DNA of 64,000 nt, taken from the NCBI GenBank assembly GCA_033032175.1, contig CM065328.1, positions 8,494,690-8,558,689 of the forward strand, written 5' to 3'. Of the stretch, positions 7,396-57,915 are shown in pieces. The notes beneath the pieces were generated by a model, which saw nothing but the letters and a program-made list of their open reading frames with translations, was not told where the DNA came from and made no database searches. Position 1 is the first letter of the stretch; each line of letters starts with the position of its first letter. The translations under genes and the position numbers were made by a program. The DNA is from Saturnia japonica. Its lineage: Eukaryota > Arthropoda > Insecta > Lepidoptera > Saturniidae.

Positions 7396-9664
7396 CTTGG
7401 GCTATTGCTGAAATAACACAATTTTTCTTACTTACGTACCACTTAGTACACATAATTGTTTTTTAAATAACGTTATTATTATTGTTTTGATATTCCGCCA
7501 CATGATGCGTACGCAGCTCTCAGTTTCACCTAATAAACCACTGCTTCCACTAAACGCCGCAAAAGAAGTAAAATTACAGAAATGATAATTATGTTAAATA
7601 ATTATATTTTTAGCACAATATCTACTTGATAATGGAAAAAAAACTCATCTGATATTTTGTAGAATCGCATATGTTTGATTTTATTTTAGCTTTCCCATGA
7701 TCAAAGTTTTAAAGTATCACATTTTGGTCCTTATAGTTTTAGGTTTATAATATTCGCGGTGGATTACTTCGGTTCGTCATACATTTTATGTCAAAATTTA
7801 AGTTAGTTATAGGTAACTTTTTAGCTGTCAGTATATAGCAAGATATAAATTATTAATCAATATATTTTAACATACTGTGAAAGTCAAGTAATATTCTAAA
7901 AATTACGTTAATTTTGGGAATAATATTTTTGTTGATATCTATTTACTCTTATAAATTTCGTAGCTCGTTTTATTTCCATCTATGTAATTTAAACACTATA
8001 GCTGTATAATTACTAGGTACAATTAGCCTACTAAGTGCTACTTAAGTTTTGAACATCTTTAATTGTGACTAATTTGTAACATTTTGTATAAATTGTACTT
8101 CGATGTAACTAATTGATGCTAGATAGTGTTGTAATATGAACTTATTGTCTTGCCCGGTAACTTTTACATTTATTTACTATTTTTATTTGTTTGTTTGATT
8201 CCAAGTCAAGTTTTGATTATTGTATAAATAATAAAAATGTTAATTTATTGATATATATGAATATATAACAATGTATATATAAAATAAACAATATTTAGTT
8301 TCTCTGAAAAAATATTTCAAAAGTTTATTTATGGTTTTCATAATACATCTAGGTAAATTGTTTATGACAGTTTTTAATATTATCTGTAAACAATAAAACA
8401 ATTATAAAGTTATTTCTTTATAACAAATTTCAAAAAATAAACAACAGGAATCGACACTTAGGTACGACTTTAAAAACAATCTAAAGCATAGATTGATAGA
8501 TAGATAAGCATAGATGTCATAGATTATTTAGTGAGCGCGAATACGTATTACATACACAAACTATAAAGACATATTTTAATTTTTGATACATATATTTTCT
8601 TTACATATATATTATAATTACCAATAATAATAATAGGTCTTCCGTTAATTACAATTCAGAATGGTGTTGGGGTCGGACAAAATCTTATTAAATCTCATTT
8701 AACAAAAACCACTCAATAAAAATATCTAGTTATTTATTTAGAGAATATATCTTTATACCAATGCTAAACGCTGACTGGAATTATTGAGTATACACTGTGG
8801 TTCATTATAATTCACAACTCATCCGAGTACTGCGACAACTTAACAAAGTCCTAGTACAGGTTCCTCTAGTCGACTTATTTGCTGATGAATGCCAAGATTT
8901 ACGCGCCATAATGAATGTATTTAGTGAAGGATGAAATGAGTAGATTGGTCTATAATAGGTACCTACCTATATGCTATAAATAAATATCTGTAGTAAATAT
9001 TATAATATTTGTAATTTCCTATGTTGAAATGTTTGTTTCGCGCGGTTACAAATTAATCTGTTAAACTGTATTATTATGTAAATTATTGTAATAATTATAT
9101 TATGTAAATTAATTATATAAATAAAATGGAATAAATGGCTGTTCGTAGCTAAGCGCATCACTTGAGCTTGAATGGACCGCTTTGGTTTATTTTTTTTTTT
9201 ACTTTAAAATGTTCGTAATAGTTAATTTTATTTATTATCATGGAAAAGTTATCAGGAAAAAGGATAGGTGGCGTTGTGGTGCGCTTTTAAGTAAACATTA
9301 TTTATATATAATCAATATAATATATATTGTATGTATAGCGAATAGCGGATCTATATAGATAATATTTTATATTAAATATTGTATATGCTAAGAATTTCCA
9401 TAGAAGATATCTGTATTAACGCTTAGGTATTTAATGGCATAAGGTGTATGAACATATCAAATAAATTTAATCATTAAAACTACAAACACATGTTACCATA
9501 CCAAATCTCATCTAGTGAGAAGGGGTCCAAATAAAATAAAAAACATCTTACGTAATCAATGGTCCTCCACTAAACTAGGAGTATGTTCAGTTTTAAAACA
9601 AATGGCCGCGTGTGTGTTTGTCCTATCTATTCATACAATAATGATATATTTCGATACAGACAAA
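7396..9664. other. 2.3 kb AT-rich stretch, no gene seen
   Basis: Dominated by A/T runs and short TA-rich motifs such as tatatatgaatatataac. No frame longer than 60 residues, no repeat matching other parts of the window and no RNA gene signature that I can see. Confidence 0.5.
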
Positions 9665-10450: not shown

Positions 10451-10711
10451 TGTGAGGAACAGGGTGTAAAGTTCCTCATCCACCATAGAAAAGAGAGGTT
10501 CCTCCGACCTTGGGATAATGTGAGGAACAGGGTGTAACGTTCCTCATCCACCATTGCAAAGGGAGGATCCTCCGACCAGACGGGTGTTATGTCTGGCGGG
10601 CTTCTGCGTAACGGTTGTTGTCGGGTTCTTTGTATATATGTTCAATTGTTGAGTTAATTTTAATATCGCGGTTTAGGATGCGTCGTATGTGGCGAGATAG
10701 ATGTCGCTACA
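10451..10711 (-). repeat. Solo-LTR-like copy of the small LTR element, with a 68 bp tandem duplication
   Basis: 10560-10711 matches the reverse complement of the LTR at 19399-19598 (landmarks ggaggatcctccgaccagac, gtgttatgtctggcgggc, gtcgggttcttt, tagatgtcgctaca). The side next to the LTR 3' end consists of two tandem units of 68 bp starting at 10451 and 10519, each with tgtgaggaacagggtgtaa and cctcatccaccat. The first unit reads agaaaagagaggttcctccg and the second gcaaagggaggatcctccg, the same variation as seen between the two LTRs of the nested copy. Confidence 0.65.
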
Positions 10712-13866: not shown

Positions 13867-14207
13867 TATAAGACGACTATAGTCATTTACTTTGACATGT
13901 AAAATAAACTGTAAGCGTTGCTCTGTAAACAAAGTTTTATTTCATTAAATTTAATAATTAATTAATATTTTATACTAATATACACTAAATAATAATATCA
14001 TGTTAATTAACCAACCTGTAAACAAAGAAACGACATTAAAAGTTTATATTTCCTAGTTACATGTCCTTTCTTTAGTTTTACAATTCATTTTTAATATTTG
14101 ACACATCTGTCACCTTTTGTGTGTCACAATATTCTTTTTAATAATAGATAAACTATATACAACCTACATTACTTAAATTAGAATTAAAGAAATATATTTT
14201 CTTTACA
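13867..14207 (-). repeat. 3' LTR of the Gypsy element
   Basis: 341 bp, from TGTAAAG (minus strand, at 14207) to CTTATA (at 13867). It starts with the usual TG but ends in TA rather than CA. Contains an AATAAA signal at about 13935-13944 on the minus strand. Confidence 0.9.
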
Positions 14208-14219
14208 TCTCCCCCCTTT
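14208..14219 (-). promoter_or_regulatory. Polypurine tract
   Basis: Minus strand reads AAAGGGGGGAGA directly before the 3' LTR (TGTAAAG). This is the expected RNase H-resistant primer for plus-strand DNA synthesis. Confidence 0.9.
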
Positions 14220-14268
14220 GGAAGAAAATTTACAAGAAAATTTTCGTTAATTTTACTCATACTCTTCA

Positions 14269-17200
14269 TCATATCTCGTTATTTTTTGTTGTAGGGACTG
14301 GAATAAGTTTCGTGATATGAAAAAGGTTAGACTCTATTTTTCTGTGTCCTGTATCTATTTTATATATTGAATTTGAAATTTTTTCAACAATCTTATAGGG
14401 TCCAATTTTCAGTTCATCTAATTTTTTTCTGTTCAATTTATTTCCATTTTCCACATATACCATGTCTCCTAAATTAAATTCACAGTGTTTTCGATTTTTA
14501 TCGAAAAGTATTTTATTGTAATTATGTGACTTTATTGTATTTTCAAGCGCTGTTTTTCTGTCTCTTATCCAATTTTTATTTGATTCTCTTTGTTTTAGTT
14601 CGTTTGGTATGAATGTTACATCTGTACCGTATAAAAGATAACTTGGTGCAAAACCAGTGACTGAATGAATCGTATCATTATATTTATTTACGCATTCTTG
14701 AGCTACTGATGCCCAGGCTCTCTTTTTTTCTTTTTCATTTATTTTGCATCTCATTTTGTTCACTAATGTTTGGTTCAGCCTTTCATTTAGGCCATTTGAG
14801 AATGGTGTATTTACTGCTGTAAAGATCATAGTTACTTTCTTTTCATGTAAGAATTTCTTAAATTCTTTTGAATTGATTCCGGGATATTGATCGGTGAGAA
14901 GCATTCCGATATCCTCAGTTTCTGCAACATTCATCACTAGTTTTATATAATCATTTGCATTTTGAGTTTTTGAAGTGAGAATAAATGCGTATCTAGTAAA
15001 GTGATCTACTAACAGATGTAGATATTTTTTTGTTGATCTTGAACCTCCAAAACCCCCTATTGTATCTATAGATATTATTTCGAAAGGGCTTGTGGCGGGA
15101 CCTAGATGAGACATAAAGCCAAATTTGTCGTGTCCTCTTGACTTATTTTTAATACAAACCTCACAGTTTTTACAAACTTTTTTTATGTTTTTCATCAAAT
15201 TTTTCGCTGTGTAGAGTGAGCTTATCGTTTTTTGCATTTGTCCAACTCCAATATGGCAAAAGTTTTCATGTATATCTTTTAAAAGTTTGATACTTAACTC
15301 TTCTGATATAATAATTTTTTCCTTTCTTTTGATTTTTTTAAAATATATATTATGTTTTTCAACCAATTTATTTTTGTTATTTTGTATTTCCACATTTTTA
15401 CTTTGGTCTATTATAATTTCTTCTAGTTTAATTAAATTTACTACCTTTAATTGTTCATCTGTATTTTCATACGACTCCAATACTGGATTCCTGCTTAGAC
15501 AGTCTGCTTCCAAATTTTGTTTTCCTGGAGCATATTTTACTTTAAAGTCATATTGCGATAAATAATATGTTAAGTCACCCAGCTCTTCATCGGTTCTAGA
15601 TTTCAGATTCATATTCTCTAGTGGCTTGTGGTCTGAATAAACTGTAAAAAATTTACCTATCAACCAGTATTGCCAGTATTTCACCGCTTCTTTGATAGCT
15701 AAACATTCTAAGTATATTGCCTTTTTTTTCTTTTGGGCTTCATTAAGTTTTTTAGAAAAGTAAGCTACTGGTTTTTCTTTTCCGTCAGACTGTGTTTGTT
15801 TTAAAATGGCGCCAACACCTTCTATAGAAGCATCTGTATAAATATTAATGGGTAATTCTGGATCAAAAACTTCAAGAATTGGTTGGGTGCATAACAAGGT
15901 TTTTATCATTTCAAATGCTTTTTTACATTTTTCAGACCAAATAAATTTTGTATTTTTCCTTAATAAATTATGTAACGGATCCAATATTATTGTACTCCTT
16001 GGTATATACTCACGATAAAAATTTATTTTTCCTAGAAATTGTCTTACATTCTTCTGCGTTTTTGGTACAGGAAAATTCTTTATCGAAACCAAATTATCCT
16101 TTAATGGTGTGATAGAATTGTTCTGAATTATATAACCCAGATATTTTACAGAGTTTGATGCAAATGTGCATTTTGTTAATTTTAACCTGAAACCTTCTGT
16201 TTTGATCGCATCTAGCAACAGTGTCAGATGAATAATATGATCAGCAAACGTTTTAGAAAAAATAAGTATGTCATCTATATAATTAACAGTAAAATTAGTA
16301 AGTTTATATTTTCTCAATATATTACTTAAAATCCGCTGGAAAATAGCAGGCGAGGTCTTTAGGCCAAAAGGTAGGCATGTCCATTGGAAATGACCTTCCT
16401 GTGTTATGAATCCTGTCTTTTGTTTATCTTCTATTCTTAATGGAATAGACCAAAATGCAGAATTTATGTCAAGGCTTGAGAAAAAATTACAATTTCTAGT
16501 TTTTAATATTAAATCTTCGATTAACGGAAATGGTTGCGCTTGTGGCACCACTATTTTATTTAAATCCCTAAAGTCTATACATAGTCTTGATTTCTTGTTA
16601 TCTTCTTTCTTAAATGCCAGTGTAACGGGTGCTGCAAATGGACTGTAGGATTCTTCTATCAACTTATTATCCAGTAACTTTGCTATTTGTTCTCCTATCT
16701 CTTTTTTATCTTCTACAGTGCATCTATAGGGCCTTTTACAACAATATTTATCTACCAACAAGTCTATCCTCGCTTCATATCCATTAACAGTACCGACATC
16801 AAATTTATTTTTGGCAAAAATTGATTTATATTTGCTAATTAATGTGTTTATTTCTGACTTTTGATACTCATTTAAATGATCTATTTTTATTTCAAAATCT
16901 TCTTCTTTTACATGTTCGTTAAAATTTATTTTGAATTCTTCTTCATCTTTTGTAATAACTTCTTCATTTTCAGTATTTATACTCTGTTTCTGAGTTATCT
17001 GTAAGTCTTCATTTTGGATTAGTTTGAACTCTTTAATCAAGTCCAATCCAATCAAAAAATCATATTTGAAATTTTGTTCATTAATAATGTATACATCAAC
17101 ACTTTTTTCCAATTCAAAGATTTTTATTTTCAACGTTGTCAAACCACTTGTCTTTATAACACCATTAATCGTTATTAAATTTGCTACGTTCAAATGATTT

Positions 17201-17328
17201 TCTTTTCTGCTTAGTTTCAATAACTTAGAGTTGATCAAAGAAACATTCGAACCCGAATCATAAACCCCATATATTTTTAATTTATTGTCTATTAGTAGTT
17301 TGACATTTATTAATGGTGTTACTATTCG
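14269..17328 (-). CDS. pol: Pro-pol polyprotein (protease, reverse transcriptase, RNase H, integrase)
   Basis: Expressed by -1 frameshift from gag; the frame is open from 17328. Counting residues from 17238: the aspartic protease signature DSG lies just upstream (codons 17259-17251, YDSGSNVSL). Reverse transcriptase spans about 160-400, with RLCIDFRDLN at 218-227, LPFGLKTSPAIFQ at 289-301 and the catalytic YIDD at 320-323. RNase H has D469 (YTDAS), E511 and D536 (YSDHKPL). Integrase has the zinc-binding H657, H662, C689, C692, then the catalytic D725, D783 and E819 (35 residues between the last two), and a C-terminal GPY motif at 946-948. The product would replicate the element in virus-like particles and insert it. 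There is no stop or frameshift. The clade is Ty3/Gypsy; I cannot place it more finely. Confidence 0.95.
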   Translation of the reverse strand, partial: RIVTPLINVKLLIDNKLKIYGVYDSGSNVSLINSKLLKLSRKENHLNVANLITINGVIKTSGLTTLKIKIFELEKSVDVYIINEQNFKYDFLIGLDLIKEFKLIQNEDLQITQKQSINTENEEVITKDEEEFKINFNEHVKEEDFEIKIDHLNEYQKSEINTLISKYKSIFAKNKFDVGTVNGYEARIDLLVDKYCCKRPYRCTVEDKKEIGEQIAKLLDNKLIEESYSPFAAPVTLAFKKEDNKKSRLCIDFRDLNKIVVPQAQPFPLIEDLILKTRNCNFFSSLDINSAFWSIPLRIEDKQKTGFITQEGHFQWTCLPFGLKTSPAIFQRILSNILRKYKLTNFTVNYIDDILIFSKTFADHIIHLTLLLDAIKTEGFRLKLTKCTFASNSVKYLGYIIQNNSITPLKDNLVSIKNFPVPKTQKNVRQFLGKINFYREYIPRSTIILDPLHNLLRKNTKFIWSEKCKKAFEMIKTLLCTQPILEVFDPELPINIYTDASIEGVGAILKQTQSDGKEKPVAYFSKKLNEAQKKKKAIYLECLAIKEAVKYWQYWLIGKFFTVYSDHKPLENMNLKSRTDEELGDLTYYLSQYDFKVKYAPGKQNLEADCLSRNPVLESYENTDEQLKVVNLIKLEEIIIDQSKNVEIQNNKNKLVEKHNIYFKKIKRKEKIIISEELSIKLLKDIHENFCHIGVGQMQKTISSLYTAKNLMKNIKKVCKNCEVCIKNKSRGHDKFGFMSHLGPATSPFEIISIDTIGGFGGSRSTKKYLHLLVDHFTRYAFILTSKTQNANDYIKLVMNVAETEDIGMLLTDQYPGINSKEFKKFLHEKKVTMIFTAVNTPFSNGLNERLNQTLVNKMRCKINEKEKKRAWASVAQECVNKYNDTIHSVTGFAPSYLLYGTDVTFIPNELKQRESNKNWIRDRKTALENTIKSHNYNKILFDKNRKHCEFNLGDMVYVENGNKLNRKKLDELKIGPYKIVEKISNSIYKIDTGHRKIESNLFHITKLIPVPTTKNNEI

Positions 17329-18452
17329 TTTTTTTGATCCATTTCGTTTAACTCAGCTTCTATCACTGAATTATTGATATGTTTAATGGTATTTTTCTTT
17401 AATGTATCATCTTCTTTTGTCCTAAACCAGCACTTAGATTTTGAGTGGTACCGAGGGCCTTTATTTAACTTTTCACGTGTTTCACATAAATCTTGATCTT
17501 CATTTTTCCCATTAGGTCTTGGATTACTACATTTTTTCTTAGCTAAAAAAATTACTTTGTTCACCATATGTTCATACTTAGTCACTTCATTAAACAAATC
17601 CACTGTATCTTTTACGGCTTCTCTATCAATCTTATTAAGTACAAATTCTGGTAAACCAGCAGCAACAAGATCCACTAAAGTATCTGCGTCAATTGATCTT
17701 CTCATATCCAATAAAAGTTTTTCTTTTCTTATAGCATAATCTAACAGTGAACCGTTTTTGTATTTAAAGAATAGTGCATGAGTTACTGGGTTCCATCCCT
17801 TATTTGCAAATGATGCACAAAATTTGTTTTTCCAGGTTGACCATTCCGAGTTCATTGTTAATTTTATAATCATTGAGTTGTACCAATCTGTACAACTCCC
17901 ATCCAAAAACAGTCTGAGAATTTCAATTTTCTTTTCGTCCGTTATCAAATCAAATCGTAGGCATTCTTGTTCAAAAATTTCAATCCACTGGTTTGGATTA
18001 GAATTTTTGGTTGTAAATTTTTCAATCACAAACTCCTCTGCAATGTTTTTTAAATTATGTGGTTTAATTATATGTGTATTTTCTACTAATTTCTCAAATA
18101 ATTTTTCCAATGTACTTTCTTTTTCGAATGTAGTGACAAGTTGTTCACAATTCAGTTCTTCTAAAAATTGATCCCCAAATTGTAAATTATCATCCTCATC
18201 TATGTAAGTTCTTCTAAGTTCCTCTGTCATAGTTATCCAAACTCTTCTTACCTGATACCTTTTTCTTAAGCTATTGGTAACTTTATTATAAACAGATGAT
18301 TTCATTATTTCCTTGTGATGACTAACTGCTTGTAGAGCTTCTGGTATAGCGTATACTTTATTATCATTTGTGGCTATCGAAGTTATAGAGCAAATATTTG
18401 ATTTACCATCAGTTCCAGGTAATAATGTGAATTCAAAACGAAGTTTCTCCAT
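17322..18452 (-). CDS. gag: Gag-like structural protein, 376 residues
   Basis: The start chosen is ATG at 18452, only 27 nt after the LTR; the longer frame reaching into the LTR begins with a non-ATG codon. Residues about 145-285 (NPNQWIEIFEQEC, DGSCTDWYN, WKNKFCASFANKGW) match the retrotransposon gag capsid fold. Near the C-terminus is a zinc-knuckle-like motif with C323, H336 and C341, but the expected second cysteine is Arg326 (CGT, one transition from TGT). The stop at 17322 lies two codons after the slippery heptamer. Role: particle assembly and RNA binding for the element. Confidence 0.9.
   Translation of the reverse strand: MEKLRFEFTLLPGTDGKSNICSITSIATNDNKVYAIPEALQAVSHHKEIMKSSVYNKVTNSLRKRYQVRRVWITMTEELRRTYIDEDDNLQFGDQFLEELNCEQLVTTFEKESTLEKLFEKLVENTHIIKPHNLKNIAEEFVIEKFTTKNSNPNQWIEIFEQECLRFDLITDEKKIEILRLFLDGSCTDWYNSMIIKLTMNSEWSTWKNKFCASFANKGWNPVTHALFFKYKNGSLLDYAIRKEKLLLDMRRSIDADTLVDLVAAGLPEFVLNKIDREAVKDTVDLFNEVTKYEHMVNKVIFLAKKKCSNPRPNGKNEDQDLCETREKLNKGPRYHSKSKCWFRTKEDDTLKKNTIKHINNSVIEAELNEMDQKNE
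17328..17334 (-). promoter_or_regulatory. -1 ribosomal frameshift site A AAA AAC between gag and pol
   Basis: The gag codons CAA AAA AAC GAA TAG contain the canonical slippery heptamer A AAA AAC, two codons before the stop. Slipping back one base enters exactly the frame that encodes the protease and pol (CGA ATA GTA). I did not fold the downstream RNA for a stimulatory structure. Confidence 0.8.
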
Positions 18453-18468
18453 TTTAAATTTTAAACAA

Positions 18469-18479
18469 TAATGTCGTTT
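18469..18479 (-). promoter_or_regulatory. Putative self-primer binding site
   Basis: The first 11 bases after the 5' LTR, AAACGACATTA in sense, do not start with TGG and do not look like a tRNA 3' end. They are the exact reverse complement of TAATGTCGTTT at 18651-18641 inside the LTR. The match stops at exactly 11 bp on both sides. In Tf1 of fission yeast, the first 11 nt of the mRNA pair with such a site and prime reverse transcription. Confidence 0.6.
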
Positions 18480-18820
18480 TATAAGACGACTATAGTCATT
18501 TACTTTGACATGTAAAATAAACTGTAAGCGTTGCTCTGTAAACAAAGTTTTATTTCATTAAATTTAATAATTAATTAATATTTTATACTAATATACACTA
18601 AATAATAATATCATGTTAATTAACCAACCTGTAAACAAAGAAACGACATTAAAAGTTTATATTTCCTAGTTACATGTCCTTTCTTTAGTTTTACAATTCA
18701 TTTTTAATATTTGACACATCTGTCACCTTTTGTGTGTCACAATATTCTTTTTAATAATAGATAAACTATATACAACCTACATTACTTAAATTAGAATTAA
18801 AGAAATATATTTTCTTTACA
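18480..18820 (-). repeat. 5' LTR of the Gypsy element
   Basis: 341 bp, with no difference from 13867-14207 that I can find. Features in sense: TATAAA about 11 nt before TAATGTCGTTT (close for a TATA box) and AATAAA near 18553-18548. A transcript starting at 18651 and ending soon after the AATAAA would have a repeated region of about 120 nt. Confidence 0.9.
18641..18651 (-). promoter_or_regulatory. Candidate self-primer segment, possible RNA 5' end
   Basis: TAATGTCGTTT in sense, complementary to the site at 18479-18469. If the transcript starts here, its 5' end can fold back and prime. The start site is inferred, not seen. Confidence 0.5.
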
Positions 18821-19398: not shown

Positions 19399-19598
19399 TG
19401 TGGCGACATCTACATAGCGACACATAGCGACACAGCGAGTCACATAAGACGCATCGTACTATCCTACATTGCGCTATAGAAATTAACTCAATCGTTGAAT
19501 ATATATACAAGAACCCGACTACAACCGTTGGGCAGCTGCCCGCCAGACATAACACCCGTCTGGTCGGAGGATCCTCCCTTTGCAACAGTTCTTCTACA
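19399..19598 (+). repeat. 3' LTR of the small element
   Basis: 200 bp, TGTGGCGACATC to CTTCTACA, followed by the acct duplication at 19599-19602. It is intact and shows what the 5' LTR looked like before the Gypsy insertion: the uninterrupted tract is gaatatatatacaag. Confidence 0.88.
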
Positions 19599-41432: not shown

Positions 41433-41713
41433 AACATAACATAACATACCATCACGTCTGTATCCCCGAATGGTTAGGCAGAGGTGTACTAATTAAAATA
41501 ATAAAAATGATGTATTATTATTTATTATACTTCGCCGAGTATGTTTTAGATCTCATGTAATAGGGGGCGAGCCTATTGCCATTAATCGGGCACAAAGCCA
41601 AACTCCGAGCTGCTACTGAGAATTTTCATAGAAACACACAATAACACTTACCTCAACCTGGGGATCGAACCCAGGACTTCGATCATAGCAGTCGCGCTTA
41701 CGACCACTAAGCT
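41433..41713 (-). repeat. SINE A with a small AT insertion
   Basis: Minus strand: tgcctcattagcttagtggt, gggttcgatccccaggttg, the body and ggttaggcagaggtg at the 3' end in reverse. About 40 bp of A/T sequence at 41490-41530 is absent from the other copies. Confidence 0.8.
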
Positions 41714-42867
41714 AATGAGGCAGGTAGACAAAATAAATCACACCATTTATCTTGGTATTAAAATATGAAACCCATTTCATAATAACGAATACTGATCCCT
41801 ATATGCTTACGTCGCAAAAGATGAAGTGTGAAGATAAACAAGGTAGATAATTTCCGATACACAGCCACGCTCGGGGAGCGATAACAGAGTTCGAGTAAAT
41901 TTCCTCCCCTTTTTACCTTTAGCTCCCCTTTCTACCTACTCACTTAGTTCCCTGCCACTTACGGCTTGTTCAGACGTTGTTAAGTGCCTCCACTTATAGT
42001 ATTAACGGATAAGTTACATCACATAAGACATAATGATGCTTATAAATCTATCAATCAAAATTCGAAATCAAATCACAAACTAAAGACATGTTTTTTACAA
42101 GGCACTTGTGCGGAATAAACGCATAATACCTCTACCGTATAAGGGCTCAATTCATATATTAAAAAATCGTCAATATTATCGCATCGTGATACGTGATACG
42201 TTTTTATATTTTCGGTGGCAGATTTTCTTGTGTCCGTATTCACATGCTCACGAATCGAGAAAAAATCACGAATACGTTATTATTGTCGTACGTTTCATTG
42301 CTATTAAAATAATATTTCCCTATTTACAATTTATCTTTAAAACACTGTCGTAATTTTATTAATAATCATTTTAAAATAGATTTTATTATATTTCGATTTT
42401 AATAATGAATCGTCAATAACGGATATAATATGATTTTTTTATAAAATCATTCGGCACTTTTTCGGTACCTACTGTCTCTAATGTTAAGTACAGCACAACC
42501 CGAACACAACGGTGACCACCGACCACCGAGTGATCTAAATGTACGCATAAAGCACCCGATGTCATAAGAAGGAGGGAACACACTGGCCGGGAGAAGGTTT
42601 CACAGCTTCACGCTACGACAAAGATAAGTCATAGAGAACGGATCGTAGGTTCAATTCCTATTGCCTTTTCATCAAATACAAAATCAATTGAGAATTAATT
42701 TTCAAAAATAAATTTTGATTTCTATAAGTGTTATTTACAATGCTAATTATAACCTATCAATCGAGGAATAACATATCTAAGCTTCGTAAAACGTCATAAA
42801 AAATGTCAAGCCGTTTTTGAGTCAAATCCGGACATACCTGTAAACAGAATAATAGACCTCCTTTAGT
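41714..42867. other. No gene seen; small shared repeat
   Basis: 42567-42655 (aagaaggagggaacacactg, then gtaggttcaattcctattgc) has a tRNA-like B-box and matches 36085-36150 in part; it may be the remnant of one more SINE. The frame at 42108-42353 is not recognised. Confidence 0.35.
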
Positions 42868-57417: not shown

Positions 57418-57479
57418 ATAACATTATGTAAGGTTAATAGTAATATATATGAATATTAGGGTAGTTTGCAAGTAAACAT

Positions 57480-57786
57480 TATAGCGACATCTACATAGCG
57501 ATACAGCGACATCTATCAAGCCACATAAGACGCATCCTACTATCCTACATCGCGCTATAGAAATTAACTCAATCGTTGAGTATATATACAAGAACCCGAC
57601 TACAACCGTTGGGACCAAGTCCGGTGAAGCTGTAAAAGCCGCAGCGGCTCTGTTTTGGGATAGGGCCCCTAAGGCTAACAGTGTAGTCAGTTCTAAAAGA
57701 AAAAAAAAACAACCGTTGGGCAGCTGCCCGCCAGACATAACACACGTCTGGTCGGAGGATCCTCCCTTTGCAATAGTTCTTCTACA
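57480..57786 (+). repeat. Solo LTR of the small LTR element, with an insertion
   Basis: Matches the LTR at 19399-19598; the usual start TGTGGCG has become TATAGCG. Flanks acat at 57476-57479 and 57787-57790. Internal 57614-57708 is a separate retroposon. The duplication together with a single LTR points to LTR-LTR recombination. Confidence 0.88.
57614..57708 (+). mobile_element. Minimal LINE-tail retroposon, 95 bp, 12 bp target duplication
   Basis: Flanked by acaaccgttggg at 57602-57613 and 57709-57720. Starts accaagtccggtgaagctgt and ends cagttctaaaagaaaaaaaa. It is the last 80 or so bases of the LINE at 56495 plus an A tail, inserted as a unit of its own. Confidence 0.88.
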
Positions 57787-57827: not shown

Positions 57828-57915
57828 TATATATAAGATGACTATAATCATTTATTTGGACATGTGAAATAAACTTTAAGCGAATGCTTTGTAAACAAAG
57901 TTTTTTTTCATTAAA
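57828..57915 (-). repeat. LTR fragment of the intact Gypsy family
   Basis: atatataagatgactataat, ggacatgtgaaataaacttt and gctttgtaaacaaagttttt follow the first 80 bases of 13867-14207 at roughly 85-90 percent by eye. It starts in a TATA run as the intact copy does. The remainder of the LTR is missing. Confidence 0.7.

Follow-up and report, generated by a model that had tools for sequence, protein, structure and literature searches.

We analysed a window of 64,000 nucleotides (nt) from Saturnia japonica (GCA_033032175.1, contig CM065328.1, positions 8,494,690 to 8,558,689; positions below count from its first letter), in which a complete long terminal repeat (LTR) retrotransposon occupies 13867-18820 on the minus strand; besides its two LTRs it has gag, a pol whose frame overlaps that of gag, and a polypurine tract. 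All features of the element given below lie on that strand. The 5' LTR (18480-18820) and the 3' LTR (13867-14207) are identical, each 341 bp long and reading TGTAAAG...CTTATA. Downstream of the 5' LTR follow gag (17322-18452, starting MEKLRFEF) and the pol open reading frame (ORF; 14269-17352, stop to stop), with a protease-like DSGS near its start and then, by Pfam, RVT_1 for the reverse transcriptase (RT), RNase H, H2C2 and the integrase core (rve), the matches to the integrase core and SH3 being slightly below the Pfam cut-off. The order protease-RT-RNase H-integrase makes the element a member of Ty3/gypsy (Metaviridae), and Ty3 is the best solved relative of its pol. No chromodomain was found after the integrase by Pfam at E 0.001, pol ending 10 amino acids past the SH3-like match, and the element has no envelope ORF. 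The polypurine tract AAAGGGGGGAGA (14208-14219) is the same in sibling copies wherever the start of the 3' LTR could be located.

Pairing between the LTR and the bases that follow it

The 11 nt directly after the 5' LTR, AAACGACATTA (18479-18469 in the sense direction), which we treat as the primer-binding site (PBS), are the exact reverse complement of TAATGTCGTTT within the same LTR (18651-18641; the copy in the 3' LTR is at 14028-14038). The latter segment, called P below, is the predicted first 11 nt of the RNA. Mismatches stand just past both ends of the pair, as an earlier sequence-only reading of the window had described. The same reading had placed the site, which is without TGG, at the first base after the LTR, and target duplications of sibling elements uphold this position. 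Because the target is (TA)n, the window by itself leaves 2 bp of uncertainty about where the LTR ends. A readable 3' end was present in 9 of 16 sibling elements and absent from the other 7; the flanks of the nine were compared by eye, with duplication lengths of 4-6 bp considered, and matched in six, all consistent with a 4-bp target duplication, the remaining three being without matching flanks. Since two of the six (L033 and L035) are compatible only with a 4-bp duplication among the lengths considered, and the four others are consistent with it, the site starts at position +1 after the LTR. The ATG of gag does lie 27 nt from the LTR, and the same methionine starts most of the 120 listed Gag relatives, 11 of which have a short N-terminal extension and several of which are truncated.

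The chance of such an 11-mer match had been put below 1 in 10,000, which is too low: judged on the window alone, it is about 1 in 1,000 to 1 in 2,500. Dinucleotide shuffles of the LTR reproduced the match at the exact spot in 8 of 20,000 cases and over six offsets in 26 of 20,000, and when the comparison was slid along the non-element sequence of the window, 58 of 58,861 positions matched.

The stronger evidence comes from relatives. We found five related families (B to F) in the same genome, the RT of their best copies being 68-81% identical to that of the window family (A), and examined leaders of about 0.9 kb around the expected site for 18 loci, then for 9 more together with 3 further pieces, locating the gag starts by the Gag N-termini of relatives. 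The post-LTR and LTR sequences pair as AAACGACATTA/TAATGTCGTTT in family A, AAACGACATTT/AAATGTCGTTT in B, AAACAACATTA/TAATGTTGTTT in C, AAACAACATTT/AAATGTTGTTT in D, AAACGACATTTA/TAAATGTCGTTT in E (one copy) and AATCAACAATCA/TGATTGTTGATT in F. As B and E are identical over 11 nt, the pairs were counted on five distinct rows, in which 56 of 56 cells are paired and 4 of 12 positions and 7 cells have changed on both sides. The covariation score is 0.367, as against 0.103 in shuffled data, and none of 500 shuffles, which ignore relatedness, matched the covariation score, the number of cells paired or the number of cells changed on both sides. Four pairs with changes on both sides were attained by 11 of the 500, and the pair types by 45. 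The signal was lost when the partner was slid along the sequence (covariation 0.000-0.067). At two positions each of the four combinations occurs among families A to D, which would require at least three paired changes. The question raised by the sequence-only reading, whether the two 11-mers change together in relatives, can be answered in the affirmative across the six families.

Within families, an exact pair is present in 30 of 33 family-A 5' copies, the window's included, and in 21 of 24 loci of other families with a recognised site, the list of sites being drawn from those same 24 loci. Five loci without a recognised site were omitted: L125, L134 and L137 had no usable gag start, and in L143 and L144, from lineages at 40%, the leader lay outside the fetched piece. 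The candidate L008/L113 was rejected as a diverged relative, being an internally deleted sibling. The LTR pairs of all 13 elements tested in families B to F are 97-100% identical, and the match between the two LTRs ends at the site in six of them, 2-3 nt into the site in another six and 13 nt before it in L136.

Two minor observations concern the same bases. A hairpin, GTCGT...ACGAC (18473-18490), extends from the end of the LTR into the PBS; it could compete with the primer pairing. Papers on the Mos1 mariner contain AAACGACATT or its complement, which we took as coincidence.

A repeated segment and a candidate intron within the LTR

The 10-13 nt that follow the primer, called D1, recur 75-104 nt downstream as D2 in the representatives of all six families, D2 lying 0-5 nt after AATAAA. 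In the window copy D1 is CTTTGTTTACAG at 18629-18640, directly after P, and the second CTTTGTTTACAG, D2, is at 18536-18547, just behind the poly(A) signal AATAAA (18549-18554) and just before the unique 5' region (U5; 18480-18535); the 3' LTR has D1 at 14016-14027, the middle part, and D2 at 13923-13934, the whole covering 13923-14027. The repeat differs between families, reading from A to F CTTTGTTTACAG, CTTTGTTTCAG, CTCTTTACAG, CCTGTGTTTACAG, CTTTTATTACAG and CTCTTATTTTTAG, and its reappearance by shuffling was seen in 0 of 20,000 cases in five families and in 6 of 20,000 in family C. In family A, D1 matches D2 exactly in 36 of 39 LTRs; L014 has a mutated D2 and two LTRs were not parsed by the script.

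The limits of the repeat are regular. Its left end coincides with the end of the primer in five of six families, family C having one extra T, and its right end is always AG, followed by GT after D1 (GTTGG, GTAGG, GTTTG, GTGAG, GTAAG and GTTAG) and by A after D2. The stretch that begins after D1 and ends with D2 resembles a GT-AG intron of 75-104 nt, placed alike in the six families; in the window copy the predicted intron has 93 nt (18536-18628, GTTGG...TTTACAG) and contains the poly(A) signal, D1 forming the end of the predicted exon 1 and U5 the start of exon 2. Both LTRs of L115 (family B) and of L130 and L132 (family F) are without the segment between D1 and D2, and since it is absent from both LTRs, the segment-less form must have gone through reverse transcription. 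In family A, none of the 39 LTRs was seen to be without the segment. Of the marks of a spliceosomal intron, GT...AG ends, a small size (75-104 nt) and loss in RNA-derived copies are present, the last of them being a loss that slippage would give as well.

Mechanism and alternatives

We consider it very probable that the element primes its own reverse transcription with the first 11 nt of its own RNA, in the manner of Tf1, whose self-primer is 11 nt long. This was the proposal of the sequence-only reading, and the exact pair, the +1 position and the co-variation in six families support it. From the DNA we infer the RNA start, cleavage, splicing and strand transfer as follows, in the simplest cycle that would account for both paired features. 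RNA polymerase II would begin the RNA at 18651, its first 11 nt being P, and the 5' copy of the LTR in that RNA would be spliced at ACAG/GT...TTTACAG/A, joining P-D to U5-PBS and stripping the poly(A) signal from the RNA 5' end only. P would fold back onto the PBS directly after U5 and be cut after nt 11, and RT would extend it through U5 and D and halt at the new RNA 5' end, making a first complementary DNA (cDNA) that consists of U5 and D. The D end of this cDNA would anneal to D2 behind AATAAA, the predicted RNA 3' end before the poly(A) and the target of strand transfer, and synthesis into the intron, D1, P and the unique 3' region (U3) would restore the whole LTR; transfer to D1 instead of D2 would yield the segment-less LTRs. 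The limits of D would be the primer cut and the splice site. Because the PBS would be copied from P and D2 from D1 in each round, both pairs would stay identical while drifting.

The part of this scheme that concerns the intron is less firm than self-priming itself. We lean towards splicing within the LTR, with the short repeat as the strand-transfer site that restores the segment. It is a possible but clearly less probable alternative that self-priming is real and there is no intron, D1 and D2 being direct repeats retained for some other reason and RT having slipped from D2 to D1. Loss of the segment could also be such slippage between direct repeats, which tells against splicing: as D1 equals D2, the deletion junction in the three segment-less elements would be the same by either route, and segment-less LTRs number 0 of 39 in family A. 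What slippage leaves unexplained is that D1 and D2 change together in six families, that the repeat ends exactly at AG with GT after D1, and that its left end is the primer end in five families of six. Splicing of this kind needs an RNA start upstream of 18629.

Several points weigh against self-priming from 18651. The families are related, hence not independent, and the family-A copies were chosen by similarity to the window. The only family-level exception, L119 (78% RT identity, one copy, open pol frame), has the site AAACGACATTC with no exact partner in the 420 nt searched. L009 (with a G-U pair), L011, L014 (an internally deleted copy), L131 and L135 are one or two changes from an exact pair, and in L009 and L046, counted as one element because of their spacing, the primer has G for A in both LTRs and the PBS has retained the earlier letter, which makes this element a test case for PBS regeneration. 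In folding models, which are weakly informative, the P/PBS pair was not formed in RNA begun 29 or 90 nt upstream of P, the leader fold was no more stable than shuffles (z -0.57), and all pair probabilities were 0.0 in the segment-less L115. A TATAAA at 18661-18656 would, by the usual spacing, put the RNA start near 18630, inside D1. The same folding models gave pair probabilities of 0.55-0.98 for RNA begun at 18651 and 0.5-0.91 for the segment-less L130; viewed in relation to the flanking duplexes of the Tf1/sushi 'pretzel', the primer/PBS helix forms in the model without excess stability. The TATAAA had already been named as a weak point by the sequence-only reading. It does lie before P, but the worry is a weak one, as the composition of the LTR predicts 1.25 copies and two are seen, and we rejected TATA grammar as a discriminator.

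If the RNA started where the TATAAA predicts, downstream of P, then P would lie only near the RNA 3' end, and its pairing with the 5' site would circularise the RNA as in Ty3. There the parts of a 5'-3' bipartite PBS lie at opposite RNA ends and sequences near both ends join in priming (PMC4974528). We think this improbable: a separate primer would be needed, pairing at +1 after the LTR over 11 (12) nt and the beginning of D where P ends would be unexplained, and a TATAAA is expected 1.25 times by composition.

Least probable, and in our view very unlikely, is priming by a host RNA, either an internal part of a transfer RNA (tRNA) or another small RNA, with another role for the 11-mer in the LTR. 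The site varies between families and always matches its own LTR, changes that a fixed host RNA would not track; none of the sites seen in the six families starts with TGG or shows the TGG site complementary to a tRNA 3' end of tRNA-primed Ty3/gypsy elements; and the comparison with tRNAs proposed by the sequence-only reading gave no match longer than 10 nt, that one lying in flanking DNA, among 50 tRNA loci with flanks (45 distinct), an incomplete set in which the 43 typed loci represent only Lys, Thr, Cys, Arg, Ala and Ser. A host RNA would fit the fairly conserved core of the site and the relative P0190, which has a gene call that apparently begins within the LTR and by eye encodes YKTT at the matching place, being the only one of the 11 extended proteins among the 120 listed Gag relatives that seems, again by eye, to read through the site.

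Related systems, copies and other sequences in the window

In the Tf1/sushi group (Tf1, Tf2, Tj1, Tosmo and sushi) the RNA 5' end is a self-primer complementary to the post-LTR bases, and priming requires RNA structure and cleavage (PMC10085805, PMC4600332). The element here is alike in that part of its LTR is the complement of the bases that follow the LTR from +1 on. Unlike these chromoviruses, it is without a detected chromodomain, belongs to an animal clade with the Gag finger CX2CX9HX4C, and has a repeat pair and an intron-like segment between primer and PBS; its LTR ends in TA, whereas those of the fission yeast elements end in CA (PMC4600332). Predicted self-priming is also what it shares with the plant lineages Tcn1 (chromoviruses) and TAR (Ty1/copia) (PMC6317226). 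With the CsRn1 clade (CsRn1, PwRn1, AgCR and Kabuki), animal Ty3/gypsy elements with a 4-bp target duplication (PMC2582038), it shares these two properties and a well conserved Gag, whereas the tRNA-Trp site of CsRn1 and its Gag motif CX2HX9CX3C were not found here, the site being without TGG and most of the listed relatives having CX2CX9HX4C. Ty3 primes with tRNA-iMet, in contrast to the element here, which has no TGG site. Skipper of Dictyostelium is a Ty3/gypsy element without TGG (PMC5006619); it has a pyrimidine tract and no LTR complement, unlike the element here, in which the LTR complement is present.

Neither a report of self-priming in insects nor an LTR intron of this kind was found in the open-licence literature searched, which is weak evidence of absence. 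In the texts consulted self-priming is linked with the Tf1/sushi chromoviruses and with a few groups of plants or fungi, and a co-varying primer and site in an abundant animal clade without a chromodomain suggests that the mechanism either is more widespread or has arisen again. It is moderately likely that this insect Ty3/gypsy clade has LTRs with a spliceosomal intron, in which splicing, the cutting of a self-primer 11 nt long and strand transfer to the RNA 3' end by way of a residual repeat of 10-13 nt form one cycle. Should the LTR intron be real, it would be a new way for a terminally redundant RNA to confine the use of its poly(A) signal to the 3' end; the 10-13 nt sequence would be the whole strand-transfer repeat, and each round would remove the intron with the 5' poly(A) signal and then restore both from the 3' LTR. 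Self-priming and the LTR intron both firmly predict, to the single base, where RNA and cDNA should end.

A protein search of the genome (580 Mb), in which 99 of 2972 candidates were scored, found at least 46 places, counting that in the window, at which the RT is 98-100% identical along 350 or more of 421 residues, which indicates that family A moved recently; judged by these copies, the element is recently active. The window copy itself has several peculiarities. The Gag finger CX2C..H..C is present in 114 of the 120 listed relatives, in 106 of them exactly as CX2CX9HX4C with no extra C or H inside, and in the window copy an arginine replaces its second cysteine (LCETREKLNKGPRYHSKSKC), which may impair its Gag. 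In the leader near 18459 it is short of about 31 nt that at least 29 of 31 siblings have, and in U3 near 18787 of 23 nt that are present in 31 of 31.

The names of the Gag relatives are those of moths, an ant, an aphid, a beetle and a leech. No DNA of relatives was found in viral contigs, genome contigs of other sources or phages, plasmid records gave three matches at 27-31%, and protein searches yielded relatives but not their DNA. The 5.3-kb record NZ_CP087956.1 is labelled as a plasmid of Wolbachia from the moth Corcyra; it encodes a related RT (31%) and may be a host retroelement.

The repeat family into which the element is inserted is represented in the window at 19403-19598, 57475-57613 and 10554-10679, and its copies at 19403 (19403-19532) and 57475 (57484-57613) hold the unoccupied target site CTTG(TA)n..CAACG. 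At 57832-57915 lies a truncated LTR relative of 84 bp (88%), which covers the R-U5 part (R, terminal repeat), is without the primer region and ends in a TA-rich target; its 5' break is at TAATGAAA, just upstream of the position of the poly(A) signal. Beyond this piece, the search of the window for further copies of the element gave only short weak matches. An exact 17-bp match to the LTR start at 8590-8606, behind a TA-rich stretch, may be part of another related LTR. At 41649-41721, inside a repeat family, an Rfam tRNA match of 32.6 bits is probably a tRNA-derived repeat.
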